Positions 6,756 through 32,074 of a DNA stretch of 49,277 nucleotides are shown here, piece by piece. The notes below the pieces were generated by a model. It was given only the letters and a program-made list of their open reading frames with translations. It did no database searches and was not told the DNA's origin. Position 1 is the first letter of the stretch, and each line of letters opens with the position of its first letter. The DNA is from Rubrivivax sp. (lineage in GTDB: Bacteria > Pseudomonadota > Gammaproteobacteria > Burkholderiales > Burkholderiaceae_C). Position numbers and translations under genes: made by a program. The stretch is taken from positions 1 through 49,277 of the forward strand of contig JAHCKS010000033.1 in NCBI GenBank assembly GCA_026125665.1. Reading direction: 5' to 3'.

Positions 6756-9717
<2,962 letters not shown>

Positions 9718-9725
<8 letters not shown>

Positions 9726-26369: not shown

Positions 26370-27902
26370 TCACCGCCCCCTCACCACCTCCACCGCCCGC
26401 TTCGGATGGATCAGGTTCCGCCGCCCATCCGCCGTGCGCTCCGCCGTCTGCACGATCACCTCGATCACCTGCGGCGGCGTCAGCTCGGGGTCGATCGCCA
26501 GCAGCTTGGCCGCCAGGTTGGCCACCTGCGGCGCGGCCATCGAGGTGCCGGAAAGCGCCACGCGCGTGCCGCCGGGCAGGTAGCTCTCCACCTGGTAGCC
26601 GTTGGCGTGCACCTTCACCATCTTGCCGCAGCTCGTGAAGCTGGCCTCGTCGCCCGCCTGGTCCACCGCGCCCACGGTCAGCAGGTTGGGCAGCACGATC
26701 GCCGCCGGGATGTCTTCGACGAAGGCCGGGTCGTTGTTGCTGTTGCCGGCCGCGGTGACGAAGAGGATGCCGGGCGCGCCGGCAAAGGCCTCGGTGAGCG
26801 CCTTCTTCTGCATCTCGAAGTAGAGGCGCGGGTCCGAGAAGCCCTTGGTCATCGCCGTCAGCTCCGGGAGGCGCGCGCGCACGGCCTCGGGCAGCGGCAC
26901 CAGCAGGCTCTTCGAGGGCCGGCCGTACTTGTCGTAGGCGATGAAGACCGGCCGGCCCTTCGCGTCGCGCACCACCCGGTCACCGAAGAGCGATACGTCG
27001 ACCCCGCTGTCCCACACCGAGATGCGCACCGGCGCCAGCTTGCGGCCCGGCCAGGCCGCGGGGTCGAGCACGGCCTCGCGCGCGGCCCAGATGTCGGGCT
27101 TCACCACCTTGTGCGCATCGAGATAGGCGCCGAAGGCGGCCGTGAAGGTGGCCTTCAGCGGCAGCGTGGCCAGCAGGCCGAAGCGCGCGTAGACGAGGCC
27201 CGGCGCGAAGTCCGAGCTCAGCGCGCCGGTGCTGGTGGCGATGGGCTGCATCACCTCGCGCACGCGGCCGAGGATCAGCCCCTCGCCGATGAGCTCGGCC
27301 CCTTGCTTGAGCTCGCGGATGTCGTTGGCGATCACCGCATAGGGCAGCGGCGCCAGCTCGCGCGCGATGCCCTCGGCCACGGCGCGCTGGAAGGCCTCGC
27401 CGGCCGGGCCGTGTGCCTTGGCGGCGGCGGCCATCACGCGCAGCCGCAGGCCCGAGAGCAGCTTGTCGGCGGGCTTGTCCTGCAGGCCGCGCACTTCCTC
27501 GGCGCGCGCGAGCGCCTCGTCGTAGCGGCCGTCGAGGTAATCGAGCAGGGCGATGCGCGTGACGAGGTCGCGCTTGGTCGCGTGGTCGGGGATGTCGTAG
27601 GCGTCGAGCACGCCCTGCGTGTCGCGCCGCAGCGCCGCCGCGAACGGCGCGAACCTGTCGGCCGAGCGCACGATGTCCTCGAGCGGGCCCGCGACCTTGT
27701 AGGTGAAGCGCGGCAGGTCGGCCGCCTTCTCGATGCGCGGCTGGGTGGCCTGCGCCCAGGCGGCGGCAGTCGCCAGGCCGAGGCTGGTGATCGCGAAGGT
27801 GACGGCGAGAGGGGAGACGGAAGCGAGAGCGCCGGCGGCAGCGCCAGCCGCGGCCATGCGCGCGCAGGCGCGGCAGAGGGTCCTGAACATGAAAGCAGGC
27901 AT
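26370..27902 (-). CDS. S8 (subtilisin-like) peptidase homologue lacking the catalytic histidine
   Basis: 510 aa with a signal peptide (cleavage near AAAWAQA, about residue 45) and a long N-terminal helical region. The catalytic aspartate motif WDSGVDV is at D298, the oxyanion asparagine in AAGNSN at N387 and the nucleophile in SGTSMAAP at S454. The N-to-S spacing (67) equals subtilisin. Between D298 and N387 there is no histidine and no HGT motif, and the interval is shorter than normal, so the block carrying the catalytic His appears deleted in frame. It should be inactive as a protease or a decaying gene. The start could also be 27890. Confidence 0.8.
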   Translation of the reverse strand: MPAFMFRTLCRACARMAAAGAAAGALASVSPLAVTFAITSLGLATAAAWAQATQPRIEKAADLPRFTYKVAGPLEDIVRSADRFAPFAAALRRDTQGVLDAYDIPDHATKRDLVTRIALLDYLDGRYDEALARAEEVRGLQDKPADKLLSGLRLRVMAAAAKAHGPAGEAFQRAVAEGIARELAPLPYAVIANDIRELKQGAELIGEGLILGRVREVMQPIATSTGALSSDFAPGLVYARFGLLATLPLKATFTAAFGAYLDAHKVVKPDIWAAREAVLDPAAWPGRKLAPVRISVWDSGVDVSLFGDRVVRDAKGRPVFIAYDKYGRPSKSLLVPLPEAVRARLPELTAMTKGFSDPRLYFEMQKKALTEAFAGAPGILFVTAAGNSNNDPAFVEDIPAAIVLPNLLTVGAVDQAGDEASFTSCGKMVKVHANGYQVESYLPGGTRVALSGTSMAAPQVANLAAKLLAIDPELTPPQVIEVIVQTAERTADGRRNLIHPKRAVEVVRGR

Positions 27903-28061
27903 CGTGCTCGGCCGGCCGCGCCGGCCCCGGGGCTGGATCGAGGGCAACGATCCTAGGCGAGCAGGTGCCCGCAGCCGGCCCGCGTGCGACGAATCGCGCT
28001 TCCCGCGGTCCGGACCGCACGGGCGCACCGGGGACGCCCGGCGCTGCGCCGCCGCGCAGGC

Positions 28062-28801: not shown

Positions 28802-30124
28802 TCAGGGAATGGCGTACGGCTGCCCGTCCGGCGTGTCCAGCGCGATGGCCCGGTACAGGGCGCGCCAGCTGTCCGGCGGATAACTCGCCGGGTCGCGCGG
28901 CGCCAGGTACTCGACGAGGTCGAAGTGGTTCGTCCGGCGGTTGCGCACCTCGTCGCCGAGGTCGGCCGTGCCGCGGATGTGCGACATGATCGAGCGGGCG
29001 AGCAGCGAGTAGGCCCAGGGCGCCGAGCCGATGCCGTCGAGGCCGACGCCGGGGAAGTAGAGGTTGGGCGCGTCGGCGCTGCGCACGATGCCGCGGCAGC
29101 GGGCGGTCAGCGCTTCCAGCGTGCGGATCGAGGCGATCTCGGGCGCTTCGAAGTACGACAGGTCCACCGTGTAGCCCGTGCCCCAGAGCAGCAGGTCCAC
29201 GTGCTCGAGCCGGTGCCCGCCGCCGAGCGTGACGGTGCCGCCTTCGATGCGCTCGACGCCGGCGCGGTGGCGCTCGATGCGCGCGAAGTTCGCCAGCATG
29301 CCGGCCCGGCCGGGCATCAGCTGGTCGTGCTCCACGTCGAACGGCCGGGCCGGCATGATGTCGGCGATGCCGAACTTCGCGTAGCGCTCGCGCATGTCGC
29401 CGCCGATGGCCGCGCTCTGCTCGGCGGTCGTCTTGCCGCTGGCCTGCAGCCGCGCGAAGCCGCGCACGCTGCCGGCGATGGGCTTGGGTTTGCTCGTCGG
29501 CAGGAACCAGCGCAGGCCGCGGTAGGCCCACGCCACGTGGCGCGCGCCGTGCTGGAAGCACAGCTCCAGCAGGTCGAAGGCCGAGGCCCCGCCGCCGACG
29601 ACGAGCACGTGGCGGCCGCTCAGCAGCTCGGGCTCGTGCAGCGCGCTCGAGTGGAACTCGCGCACCGTGCTCGCGTTGCGCGTGATGTCCGGCAGCACCG
29701 GCGTGTTGTGCGCACCCGTCGCGGCGATGAGGTGGCGGGCACGGACGATGCCGTGAGGCGTCGCCAGTTCCCAGGCCGTGCCGGCCCGGCGGGCGCACTG
29801 CACCGGCGTGTTGAGCCGGATGCCCGAGCCGAGGGCGAAGCGCTCGACCCACGCCTCGATGTTGGCCAGGATGTGCGGCTGCGTGGAGCCGCGAAGCGGC
29901 AGGTCGCCGAGCGTCCAGTCGGCGGGGCTGATCTGGATGTCCTGCCACGCCGGCACGCGGCACCACAACCCGCCGACGCGGCCTTCCCGCTCCAGCACGA
30001 CGGCGTCCAGGCCGGCCTTGCGCGCATAGCGCAGCGCCACCACGCCGCACAGGCCGCCGCCGACGATGGCGACGTCGAGCACCCGGCCGTCGTCGGGCGG
30101 CGCGCCGCTGCGTTCCGCGCTCAC
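28802..30124 (-). CDS. FAD/NAD(P)-dependent flavin monooxygenase-like protein
   Basis: 440 aa. The FAD-binding Rossmann motif VAIVGGGLCG is at the N-terminus and a second, NAD(P)-binding motif VLVVGGGASAFD near residue 170. It is preceded by REFHSSALHEPELLSGRH, which resembles the flavin-containing monooxygenase fingerprint region. LLWGTGY matches the family's late ATG motif. The GTG at 30124 overlaps the TGA of the upstream redoxin gene as GTGA, so translation is coupled and the two proteins likely work together. The substrate is unknown. Confidence 0.88.
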   Translation of the reverse strand: MSAERSGAPPDDGRVLDVAIVGGGLCGVVALRYARKAGLDAVVLEREGRVGGLWCRVPAWQDIQISPADWTLGDLPLRGSTQPHILANIEAWVERFALGSGIRLNTPVQCARRAGTAWELATPHGIVRARHLIAATGAHNTPVLPDITRNASTVREFHSSALHEPELLSGRHVLVVGGGASAFDLLELCFQHGARHVAWAYRGLRWFLPTSKPKPIAGSVRGFARLQASGKTTAEQSAAIGGDMRERYAKFGIADIMPARPFDVEHDQLMPGRAGMLANFARIERHRAGVERIEGGTVTLGGGHRLEHVDLLLWGTGYTVDLSYFEAPEIASIRTLEALTARCRGIVRSADAPNLYFPGVGLDGIGSAPWAYSLLARSIMSHIRGTADLGDEVRNRRTNHFDLVEYLAPRDPASYPPDSWRALYRAIALDTPDGQPYAIP

Positions 30125-31245
30125 TCGGCGCCGGCCGCGGGCAACGCGGCGATGTCGGCAGGTGGGTAGTAGGGCTTGTCGCCGAGCGCATCGACCCGCG
30201 CCCAGAACTCGGGCCCGGCAGCCAGGCCGCGTGCGTCTCTTGCGGCGGCCTGCCGCCACATCGCCCACGAGTCGGGGTGCAGCCGCGAGGCCTCGGCCAT
30301 CTGCGCCTGCGCTTCGTCGGCGTGGCCCTGGCGCAGCAGGTGGCAGCCGAGGCGGAAGTGCGCGTGCGCCAGCGCGATGTCGTCCTTTGGCACGCCGAGC
30401 TTCGCCGCGGCGCGCCCGGCGTCGAGCACGTGCACGCTGGCCGGGCCGCGCCGCACCCAGTCGCGCACGGCGTCGACGTAGGCGGCCTTGGCGCGGTGGC
30501 GCGCGGCGATCGCCGCCTCGGGCACCACGAAAGTCCTGCGGTCCATCGCGCGGAACGAGTCGATCGAACCGGCGGTCTCGGGCGGGCGCACGATGCGGCC
30601 GCGTTCGTCGATCCACACCGCCTGCGGCACGTTCACCAGGTTGTACAGGTCGGCGACATGGTGCTCGCGGTCGATCAGGCAGGGGTACGAAGGCTTCGCG
30701 GCTTCGATCCACGGCCGCGCCGCCTCGGGCTGGTCGAGGGCGACGGCCAGCACCGTGAACGCCGGGTCCTTCAGCTCCTCGGCCAGCGACTGCTGCAGCG
30801 ACTGCCACACGGGCAAGTCAGCGCGGCACCCTCACCACGAAGCCCAGGTGGCGAGGAAGACCTTGCGCCCGCGGAACGAAGAGAGGCGGTGCCGGCGCCC
30901 GTCGAGGTCGGGCAGCTCGAAGTCCGGCGCTTCGAGCGTGGCCATCGCCGCGGCGCGCTGCGTGGCGCCGGTGCCCAGCACCCAGGTCCGCGACGCGGCG
31001 TCGTGCACGACGGGCTGCCCGCTGCGGCGCCACACCGCGGCCAGGTCCAGGCGGCCGTCGCGAACGAGGGCATCGGCGCCGGCCGGCGGCAGCGGCACGC
31101 AGGTGTCGCCGTGGCACAGCCCCTCGGGCTTCCAGGCCCAGCCGGTGGCGCGCTCGATGGCCGCGGCGTCGAGCCACAGCCCGTCGCCCGCGGCCTGCCC
31201 TTCGGGGCAGGGTGTCGCGCGCTGCTCGTGAAGCACGGTGATCAT
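30121..31245 (-). CDS. Candidate selenoprotein: TlpA/redoxin-domain protein with C-terminal TPR, in-frame UGA at the active site
   Basis: Reading through one TGA (30834-30832) gives 374 residues in a single frame from the ATG at 31245 (GGAG upstream). The N-terminal part (1-105) has CHGDTC and is of unknown type. Residues 108-230 form a thioredoxin fold (APDFELPDLDG, FLATWASW-U-GCRADLPVWQ, LIDREHHVADLYNLVNVP, VWIDERGRIV), and the rest a TPR-like helical region. The UGA at codon 138 falls where relatives, from memory, have the first Cys of a WASWCGCR motif. A bulged hairpin follows at SECIS distance. The downstream FAD gene is coupled by GTGA. The alternative is a nonsense mutation or sequencing error. 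Confidence 0.75.
30800..30819 (-). promoter_or_regulatory. SECIS-like stem-loop after the in-frame UGA
   Basis: On the minus strand, GACU, a bulged U (30815 or 30816), GCC, loop CGUGU, then GGCAGUC forms a 7-bp stem. The loop G (30810) is its second base and 21 bases lie between it and the UGA. A bulged U and a G-U in the apical loop are also features of the E. coli fdhF SECIS. A competing 8-bp stem (30828-30821 with 30810-30803) is possible. Structure by eye only. Confidence 0.55.
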
Positions 31246-31312: not shown

Positions 31313-31975
31313 CTACTTCCCGAACACCGCCTGCAGGATGCGGCTGCCGGTGCGCACGGGGTCGGCGCGGATCTTCTTCTCCTCCTCGCCGATCATGAAG
31401 AAGAGCCCGTCGAGCGCCTTGCCGGTGATGTACTGCTGCAGGTTCGCCTGCTCCGGTTTCACCAGGCCGAAGGCGCTCGCCTTGTCGGCGAAGGCGTTGT
31501 AGCGCGCGGCCAGCGACACCTTGCGCGTGGCCTCGGTGACGATGGGCAGGAACTTCACGCCGAGCGGCTCGCGCGTCTTCTCGGCGAAGTAGTCGGTGAC
31601 GGAGGTGCCGCTGCCGCGCACGATGCGGATGGCGTCCTGCAAGCTGATCTTGCGCGCCGCGTCCACCAGCAGTGCCTTGCCCATCGGCACGGCCTGCTCG
31701 GCGGCGCGGTTCATCGACGTGACGAGCTCGTCGACGCGCCGGCGCTGGCCGATGGCGCGCAGGAACTTCGCCGTGTCGTCGAGGAAGTCGGGCAGCGGGA
31801 TGCGCACGCGCTCGTTGCCGAGGAAGCCGTTCTCGCGCCCGAGCAGGCCGACGGCGGCGAGCGCGCCGCGCTCGAGCGCGGCGCGGATGCCGCTGGCGGC
31901 GTCGGCTTCGGACAGCGCGTGCGCACGCATCGAGGCCACGGCGGCGGCGGACAGGACGAAGGCTCGACGTTGCAT
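31313..31975 (-). CDS. DUF4197 family periplasmic protein
   Basis: 220 aa from the ATG at 31975, with a short signal-like N-terminus (MQRRAFVLSAAAVASMRAHA). The body matches DUF4197: LSEADAASGIRAALERGA, the central VPMGKALLVDAARKISLQDAIRIVRG, and the terminal KALDGLFFMIGEEEKKIRADP. Function unknown. It lies 99 bp downstream of frdD on the same strand but may be transcribed separately. Confidence 0.9.
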   Translation of the reverse strand: MQRRAFVLSAAAVASMRAHALSEADAASGIRAALERGALAAVGLLGRENGFLGNERVRIPLPDFLDDTAKFLRAIGQRRRVDELVTSMNRAAEQAVPMGKALLVDAARKISLQDAIRIVRGSGTSVTDYFAEKTREPLGVKFLPIVTEATRKVSLAARYNAFADKASAFGLVKPEQANLQQYITGKALDGLFFMIGEEEKKIRADPVRTGSRILQAVFGK

Positions 31976-32074
31976 GCCACGCTCCCGGGTACGGCGAGCG
32001 GGCATTGTCGGGCGGGCGCGCCGGCCCCGCCCGTGGCGCCGTTCCCGGGCGGCCGCACCGGCCTGTCCCGGGGT

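Follow-up and report, generated by a model that had tools for sequence, protein, structure and literature searches.

An in-frame TGA, very probably read as selenocysteine, in a ResA/TlpA-like redoxin gene of Rubrivivax sp.

In the 2008 analysis of the Global Ocean Sampling data, Zhang and Gladyshev described a protein family named 'Prx-like (UGC-containing)', assigned to pfam00578 and comprising 46 selenocysteine (Sec) sequences, which, in the sections of the paper available, derives from environmental sequences and is commoner in non-marine samples (PMC2398784). The same family is repeated in reviews, in the excerpts available, as a UGC-containing Prx-like or TlpA family protein (PMC9312934, PMC13188914). 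In addition, NCBIfam holds a corresponding model, NF041054 (WAxxUGC_long, 'ResA-like WAxxUGC motif-containing protein'). The selenoprotein family itself is not new, being in print since 2008 and present in NCBIfam, and no experimental work on it was found in the available portions of the literature searched, where the term 'WAxxUGC' also gave no match. The protein described here has in common with the published family both the PF00578 domain and the U-G-C motif (PMC2398784). Specifically, with a PF00578 match of 65.5 bits and the motif WASWUGCR, it is placed in the UGC-containing Prx-like/TlpA family already predicted, an assignment made on domain and motif and not on a comparison with the published alignments. 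The match to NF041054 covers model positions 8-318 of 354, motif included, and scores 294.7 bits, under the cut-off of 300; in a scan of 10 further members, 6 exceed this cut-off and 4 do not, with scores ranging from 271.8 to 331.9. As the score lies just under the curated cut-off, automatic naming may miss this copy.

The gene lies on the minus strand of the window, that is, the whole stretch of 49,277 nucleotides analysed here. It occupies 30121..31245 and consists of a frame of 374 codons, with an ATG at 31245 and a TGA stop at 30123-30121. The sole in-frame interruption is the TGA at 30834-30832 (30832..30834), which is codon 138 and falls within the motif WASW-U-GCR. An earlier note on this DNA had described a single frame broken only by this TGA, at the active site of a thioredoxin-fold protein, and had proposed that it encodes a selenoprotein; the coordinates are exactly as it gave them, and the site is indeed that of a TlpA/ResA-like redoxin domain. 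We hold, with a probability of about 95%, that the gene is intact and that TGA138 is read as selenocysteine, giving a product of 374 residues with an N-terminal domain, the redoxin domain and a TPR-like tail. The downstream half of the gene could start no earlier than a TTG at 30816, as noted earlier; the claim that TTG is the only candidate needs a small correction, since a GTG in the same frame lies shortly after it, at 30810-30808. The coupling to the next gene through a GTGA overlap is visible in the sequence, with the GTG at 30124-30122. Upstream, on the same strand, lies a DUF4197 protein gene (31313-32005, PF13852, 230.5 bits). Elsewhere in the window, a Subtilase-family protein is encoded at 26370-28028 on the minus strand (PF00082 at frame residues 414-535), and the plus strand at 6756-9725 encodes a hybrid histidine kinase that has PAS and receiver domains and, at its N-terminus, a domain resembling that of ethylene receptors (PF25487, 120.5 bits).

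Relatives of the gene were collected from two sources. A contig search returned 206 stretches encoding a relative, the best 80 of which were used as named loci, and a search of 399 same-family genomes gave 6 long matches, window included. In the resulting set of 86 loci (the best 80 of 206 plus these 6), the codon aligned to position 138 is TGA in 78, TGC in 7 and TGT in one, and nothing else. The earlier note had suggested aligning homologues at this codon, and had named close relatives with TGC or TGT as evidence that would speak against selenocysteine; the alignment holds only TGA and cysteine codons, and most relatives keep TGA. Two records, L052 and L062, apparently duplicate the genomes of L021 and L023, since the SelB and SelA tables of each pair are identical in every line; with the duplicates merged, TGA is found in about 76 of 84 distinct loci, window included. 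One of the cysteine copies (L025) has an extra in-frame TAG and ends after 278 residues. The loci come from records titled Burkholderiales, Alpha- and Gammaproteobacteria, Myxococcota, Chloroflexota, SAR324, Rokubacteria and Binatota. When the NF041054 model was run on a further sample of 398 genomes, drawn from the phylum, it gave two near-full-length matches, the window and one further genome (G581), each with one TGA; nothing in this draw exceeded the cut-off, and the next match after these two reached 77 bits. Among plasmids, 69 records match partially and none of them across 80% of the protein.

On a tree of 82 rows, built with codon 138 masked, the cysteine state requires 6 changes, at least 4 of which are forced by starred branches. 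Three cysteine forms from Myxococcaceae (L069, L070 and L072) are nested among Burkholderiales sequences, a position that suggests horizontal transfer; their genomes nonetheless have SelA and SelB. Two metagenome-assembled records titled Bordetella parapertussis (L059 and L061) carry the gene within an environmental Burkholderiales clade, and their labels look doubtful.

The RNA that follows the UGA can form a hairpin resembling a bacterial SECIS element. In the window, the best fold of the stretch +10..+39 is GACU-U-GCC/CGUGU/GGC-AGUC, with a stability of -10.0 kcal/mol, a loop G at +22 and 21 bases between the UGA and this G. The hairpin can form as the earlier note had drawn it, with its bulged U (+13..+32, 30800..30819, minus strand), but the full bulged 7-bp stem is formable in only 12 of 67 distinct TGA copies, and the conserved portion is a 5-bp core, pairing +16..+20 with +26..+30 around the loop CGUGU (30802..30816, minus strand). 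This core is formable in all 67 distinct TGA copies, as against 2 of 8 cysteine copies, and the G at +22 is present in 67 of 67 and 3 of 8, respectively; a lack of hairpin conservation, which had been named as a finding that would weigh against the proposal, is thus not what the family displays. The loops of the 67 copies read CGUGU in 54, AGGUU in 8, AGUUU in 3, and CGGGU and AGUCU in one each. When +12..+39 is folded, at least 3 core pairs appear in 67 of 67 TGA copies vs 3 of 8 cysteine copies. When the whole stretch +1..+39 is left to fold freely, no more than 22 of the 67 copies keep at least 3 core pairs. In the window itself, the unconstrained 39 nucleotides from the UGA favour another pairing, fully possible in 6 of the 67 copies, and their stability is not unusual (z -1.05, with 28 of 200 shuffles folding at least as well). 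Single-sequence folding was accordingly rejected as proof of a SECIS element, because the free fold prefers another pairing; as so few of the copies can adopt that pairing in full, the case rests on constraint across species.

Such constraint is evident in codon choice, although related sequences are not independent, so that neither the hairpin counts nor the codon counts that follow are probabilities. The leucine codon of the hairpin ends in G in 78 of 78 TGA loci, compared with 61% of leucine codons elsewhere in the same genes; the proline codon is CCG in none of the 46 distinct rows with proline vs 48% elsewhere; the glutamine codon is CAG in 77 of 78 vs 80% elsewhere. Synonymous re-coding, in which the glycine frequencies were assumed round numbers, leads to the same result. 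The mean stability of +10..+39 in the TGA copies is -8.19, beyond all 100 re-coding rounds (round means from -7.65 to -5.87), and all five core pairs occur in the best fold of 70% of the observed sequences vs 39% of the re-coded ones. The codons behind the TGA are constrained for RNA pairing. Mean stability was rejected as a means of telling TGA from cysteine copies, as the latter reach -7.95 by other pairings; the identity of the pairs does separate the two groups. Covariance across relatives, another of the analyses suggested beforehand, gave no signal: compensatory changes in the hairpin do not exceed those of shuffles (241 of 500), an absence that is expected because the tryptophan and glutamine codons are fixed. 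Rfam returned no SECIS match.

To accomplish selenocysteine insertion, the ribosome would read UGA138 with selenocysteine delivered by SelB and tRNA-Sec, aided by the hairpin located 16-30 bases downstream. The genome was searched for this machinery in an assembly of 6.28 Mb in 268 contigs that is 88.6% complete. A tRNA-Sec with anticodon UCA (73.4 bits) is found on contig C66, and adjoining it is the C-terminal part of SelB, 380 residues long, which scores 144.7 bits vs a cut-off of 242; it is partial, and falls short of this value, because the end of the contig interrupts the gene. The contig end at 9826, which belongs to loci L009 and L181, is the one that falls inside selB. SelD is encoded on contig C214 (426 bits). 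SelA was not found in this 268-contig, 88.6% complete assembly. Of the genes that the earlier note had proposed to look for, selC, selD and part of selB are therefore present and selA is missing, and the absence of selB and selC, named there as grounds for dismissal, is not observed. In a same-family relative (G394), selB has selA immediately upstream and tRNA-Sec after it, and the SelB fragment is 66% identical to residues 491-858 of the 862 of the G394 SelB; given this gene order and identity, selA would be expected just past the C66 contig break. The same genome also contains a formate dehydrogenase alpha gene (G000:C32:5236-6000, L144) with one in-frame TGA, in the context ARI-U-HAPTV, a site that presumably resembles that of E. 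coli FdnG. It is likely a second selenoprotein of the organism.

SelA and SelB were also searched in 51 of the 85 other records, which come from 49 different genomes; 41 of these have TGA and 8 have cysteine. Among the 41 TGA genomes, SelA (E < 1e-100) is found in 37, SelB over the cut-off in 37 and at least one of the two in 39; both are absent from the data of two, G266 (the same as G408, 84% complete) and G437. Of the 8 cysteine genomes, 5 have both SelA and SelB and 3 have neither.

Two other explanations of codon 138 have to be weighed. The gene might be a pseudogene or the product of an assembly error, with the TGA a true stop, or a misread TGC or TGG, and the downstream half debris; indeed, the window is a single contig from a draft assembly of 268, in which selA was not found. 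However, the same TGA recurs across loci of several phyla, the frame past it is open to its end, the window protein has 76% identity with that of G394 and 64% with that of G266, both TGA-bearing relatives from the same family, and the codons behind the TGA are held to RNA pairing. This conservation across species speaks strongly against such an explanation, which we regard as very improbable. Even more improbable is the decoding of UGA as tryptophan or cysteine, by suppression or by a changed genetic code. The code was judged from the genes of the family, which leaves this explanation some room; against it, TGA works as a stop, because it terminates 38 of 84 family genes, the window gene included, a tRNA-Sec(UCA) is present, and the 8 members without TGA all carry cysteine at codon 138, none of them tryptophan. 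The points that stand against selenocysteine are the missing SelA, the partial SelB, the two TGA genomes with neither SelA nor SelB in their data, the absence of covariation, the nearly equal mean stability of the cysteine copies, the infrequent core pairs in the free +1..+39 fold, the ordinary stability of the window's own stretch and the lack of an Rfam SECIS match. On the other side, the present analysis provides a conserved UGA, replacements by cysteine, a hairpin under constraint, the greater part of the Sec machinery and invariant residues. The reading as a selenoprotein, with TGA in 78 of 86 loci, a conserved hairpin core, selC, selD and partial selB, is strongly supported.

As for the protein, three regions can be told apart. 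The N-terminal domain (about residues 1-100, 30946..31245, minus strand) carries the invariant Cys44 and Cys49 in the alignment consensus EGLCxGDxC; residues 1-100 match no Pfam family at E <= 0.001, and the domain has no convincing solved relative, the single PDB hit having E = 0.12. It is followed by the AhpC-TSA, TlpA/ResA-like redoxin domain (residues 105-219, 30589..30933, minus strand), identified by PF00578 and by PDB matches to ResA and TlpA, and by a weak TPR-like repeat (residues 293-325, 30271..30369, minus strand), with a PF07719 score of 20.7 bits, below the cut-off of 27; designed TPR chains match the family profile. In an alignment of 59 of the 86 loci, four positions do not vary: Cys44, Cys49, Cys140 and residue 138, which is Sec or Cys. 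Of these, Cys140 (30826..30828, minus strand) is the partner of Sec138 within U-G-C. No signal peptide is seen by eye, and the product is probably cytoplasmic.

A possible mechanism is that Sec138 acts as the nucleophile towards its substrate, either a disulfide or a peroxide, and that Cys140, as the resolving residue, joins it in a selenenyl sulfide, while the Cys44/Cys49 pair of the N-terminal domain would relay reducing equivalents and the TPR-like tail would bind a partner. The internal thiol relay through Cys44 and Cys49 is suggested by the four invariant residues and is put forward tentatively. Equally conjectural is the broader picture of a two-module selenoenzyme, in which a U-G-C redoxin would be recycled within the chain by the N-terminal C-x4-C domain and the TPR-like tail would serve a protein client, in a family that is mostly Sec-dependent and in which cysteine repeatedly arises as an exception.

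Two alternatives concern the function rather than the decoding of the protein. It could be a seleno-peroxiredoxin that reduces peroxides instead of a disulfide reductase, as its Pfam matches to AhpC-TSA and Redoxin and the literature name 'Prx-like', in the parts of that paper available (PMC2398784), would suggest. Nevertheless, selenocysteine occupies the first position of the thioredoxin motif, the window sequence has no T-x-x-U, an alanine standing three residues before Sec, and, by sequence, the solved structures nearest to it are those of ResA, TlpA and further members of the thioredoxin family. Reduction of peroxides is thus a possibility of the lesser kind, and disulfide reduction would be favoured on sequence grounds, since Sec takes the first position of the thioredoxin motif.

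The other alternative, proposed in the earlier note, is that the Sec redoxin works in a fixed pair with a downstream FAD monooxygenase. The neighbouring gene (28802..30124, minus strand) does encode an FAD-dependent oxidoreductase and does overlap the Sec gene by GTGA, but among the 79 other loci for which 1.4 kb or more of downstream sequence is available, two of them duplicate records, none has a relative of it downstream (tblastn, E <= 1e-6); in 6 further loci the flanking sequence was too short. The single hit, in L024, is weak (29%) and upstream. Moreover, the largest clusters of neighbours trace to a single group of 14 to 18 loci, whose records are mostly titled Alphaproteobacteria, and 13 of the 86 loci have a gene of a different flavin family, luciferase-like, nearby in varying orientation. 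The proposed pairing finds no support in these data and is considered unlikely.

The luciferase-like (flavin monooxygenase) gene flanks loci of several phyla (L076, L079, L082, L083, L091, L092, L101, L105, L107, L114, L119, L125 and L129), on either side and either strand, often within a few hundred bases. Over a piece of 70 residues, the query used reaches 19.8 bits with PF00296, where 27.9 is the cut-off, and the neighbours are 22-33% identical to it, the query's own locus excepted. This proximity may be fortuitous, given the size of the family, or may point to a loose link in function, and the gene is not claimed as a partner. The group with shared neighbours comprises L094-L098, L100, L104, L106, L109, L113, L115-L117 and L126. 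Downstream, its members carry genes that we take to be 2Fe-2S subunit-like and molybdenum-hydroxylase-like, and upstream, in most of them, there are genes for what are presumably CoxD-like, CoxE-like and thiamine-diphosphate enzyme-like proteins.

An annotation that ignored the recoding would break the gene into two or treat it as defective. In addition, a family that is mostly Sec-containing, with cysteine versions scattered on the tree, represents a natural test of the benefit of selenocysteine over cysteine, and its four invariant redox residues offer a direct hypothesis for mutational work.

In comparison with other described redoxins, the protein shares membership of the redoxin family with the SelL-related redox protein NF040769, whose name links it to selenoproteins, but the match reaches only 20.4 bits against a cut-off of 120. 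The thioredoxin-family structure 4hqz has the motif C-G-P-C, and the site in the window protein is one residue shorter. The same difference separates it from ResA and TlpA, with which it has in common the redoxin domain and the WASWC active-site context: the protein is a TlpA/ResA-type redoxin in which the usual C-x-x-C site has become U-G-C, one residue shorter, and which, unlike ResA and TlpA, has an extra N-terminal domain with two invariant cysteines and a TPR-like tail.
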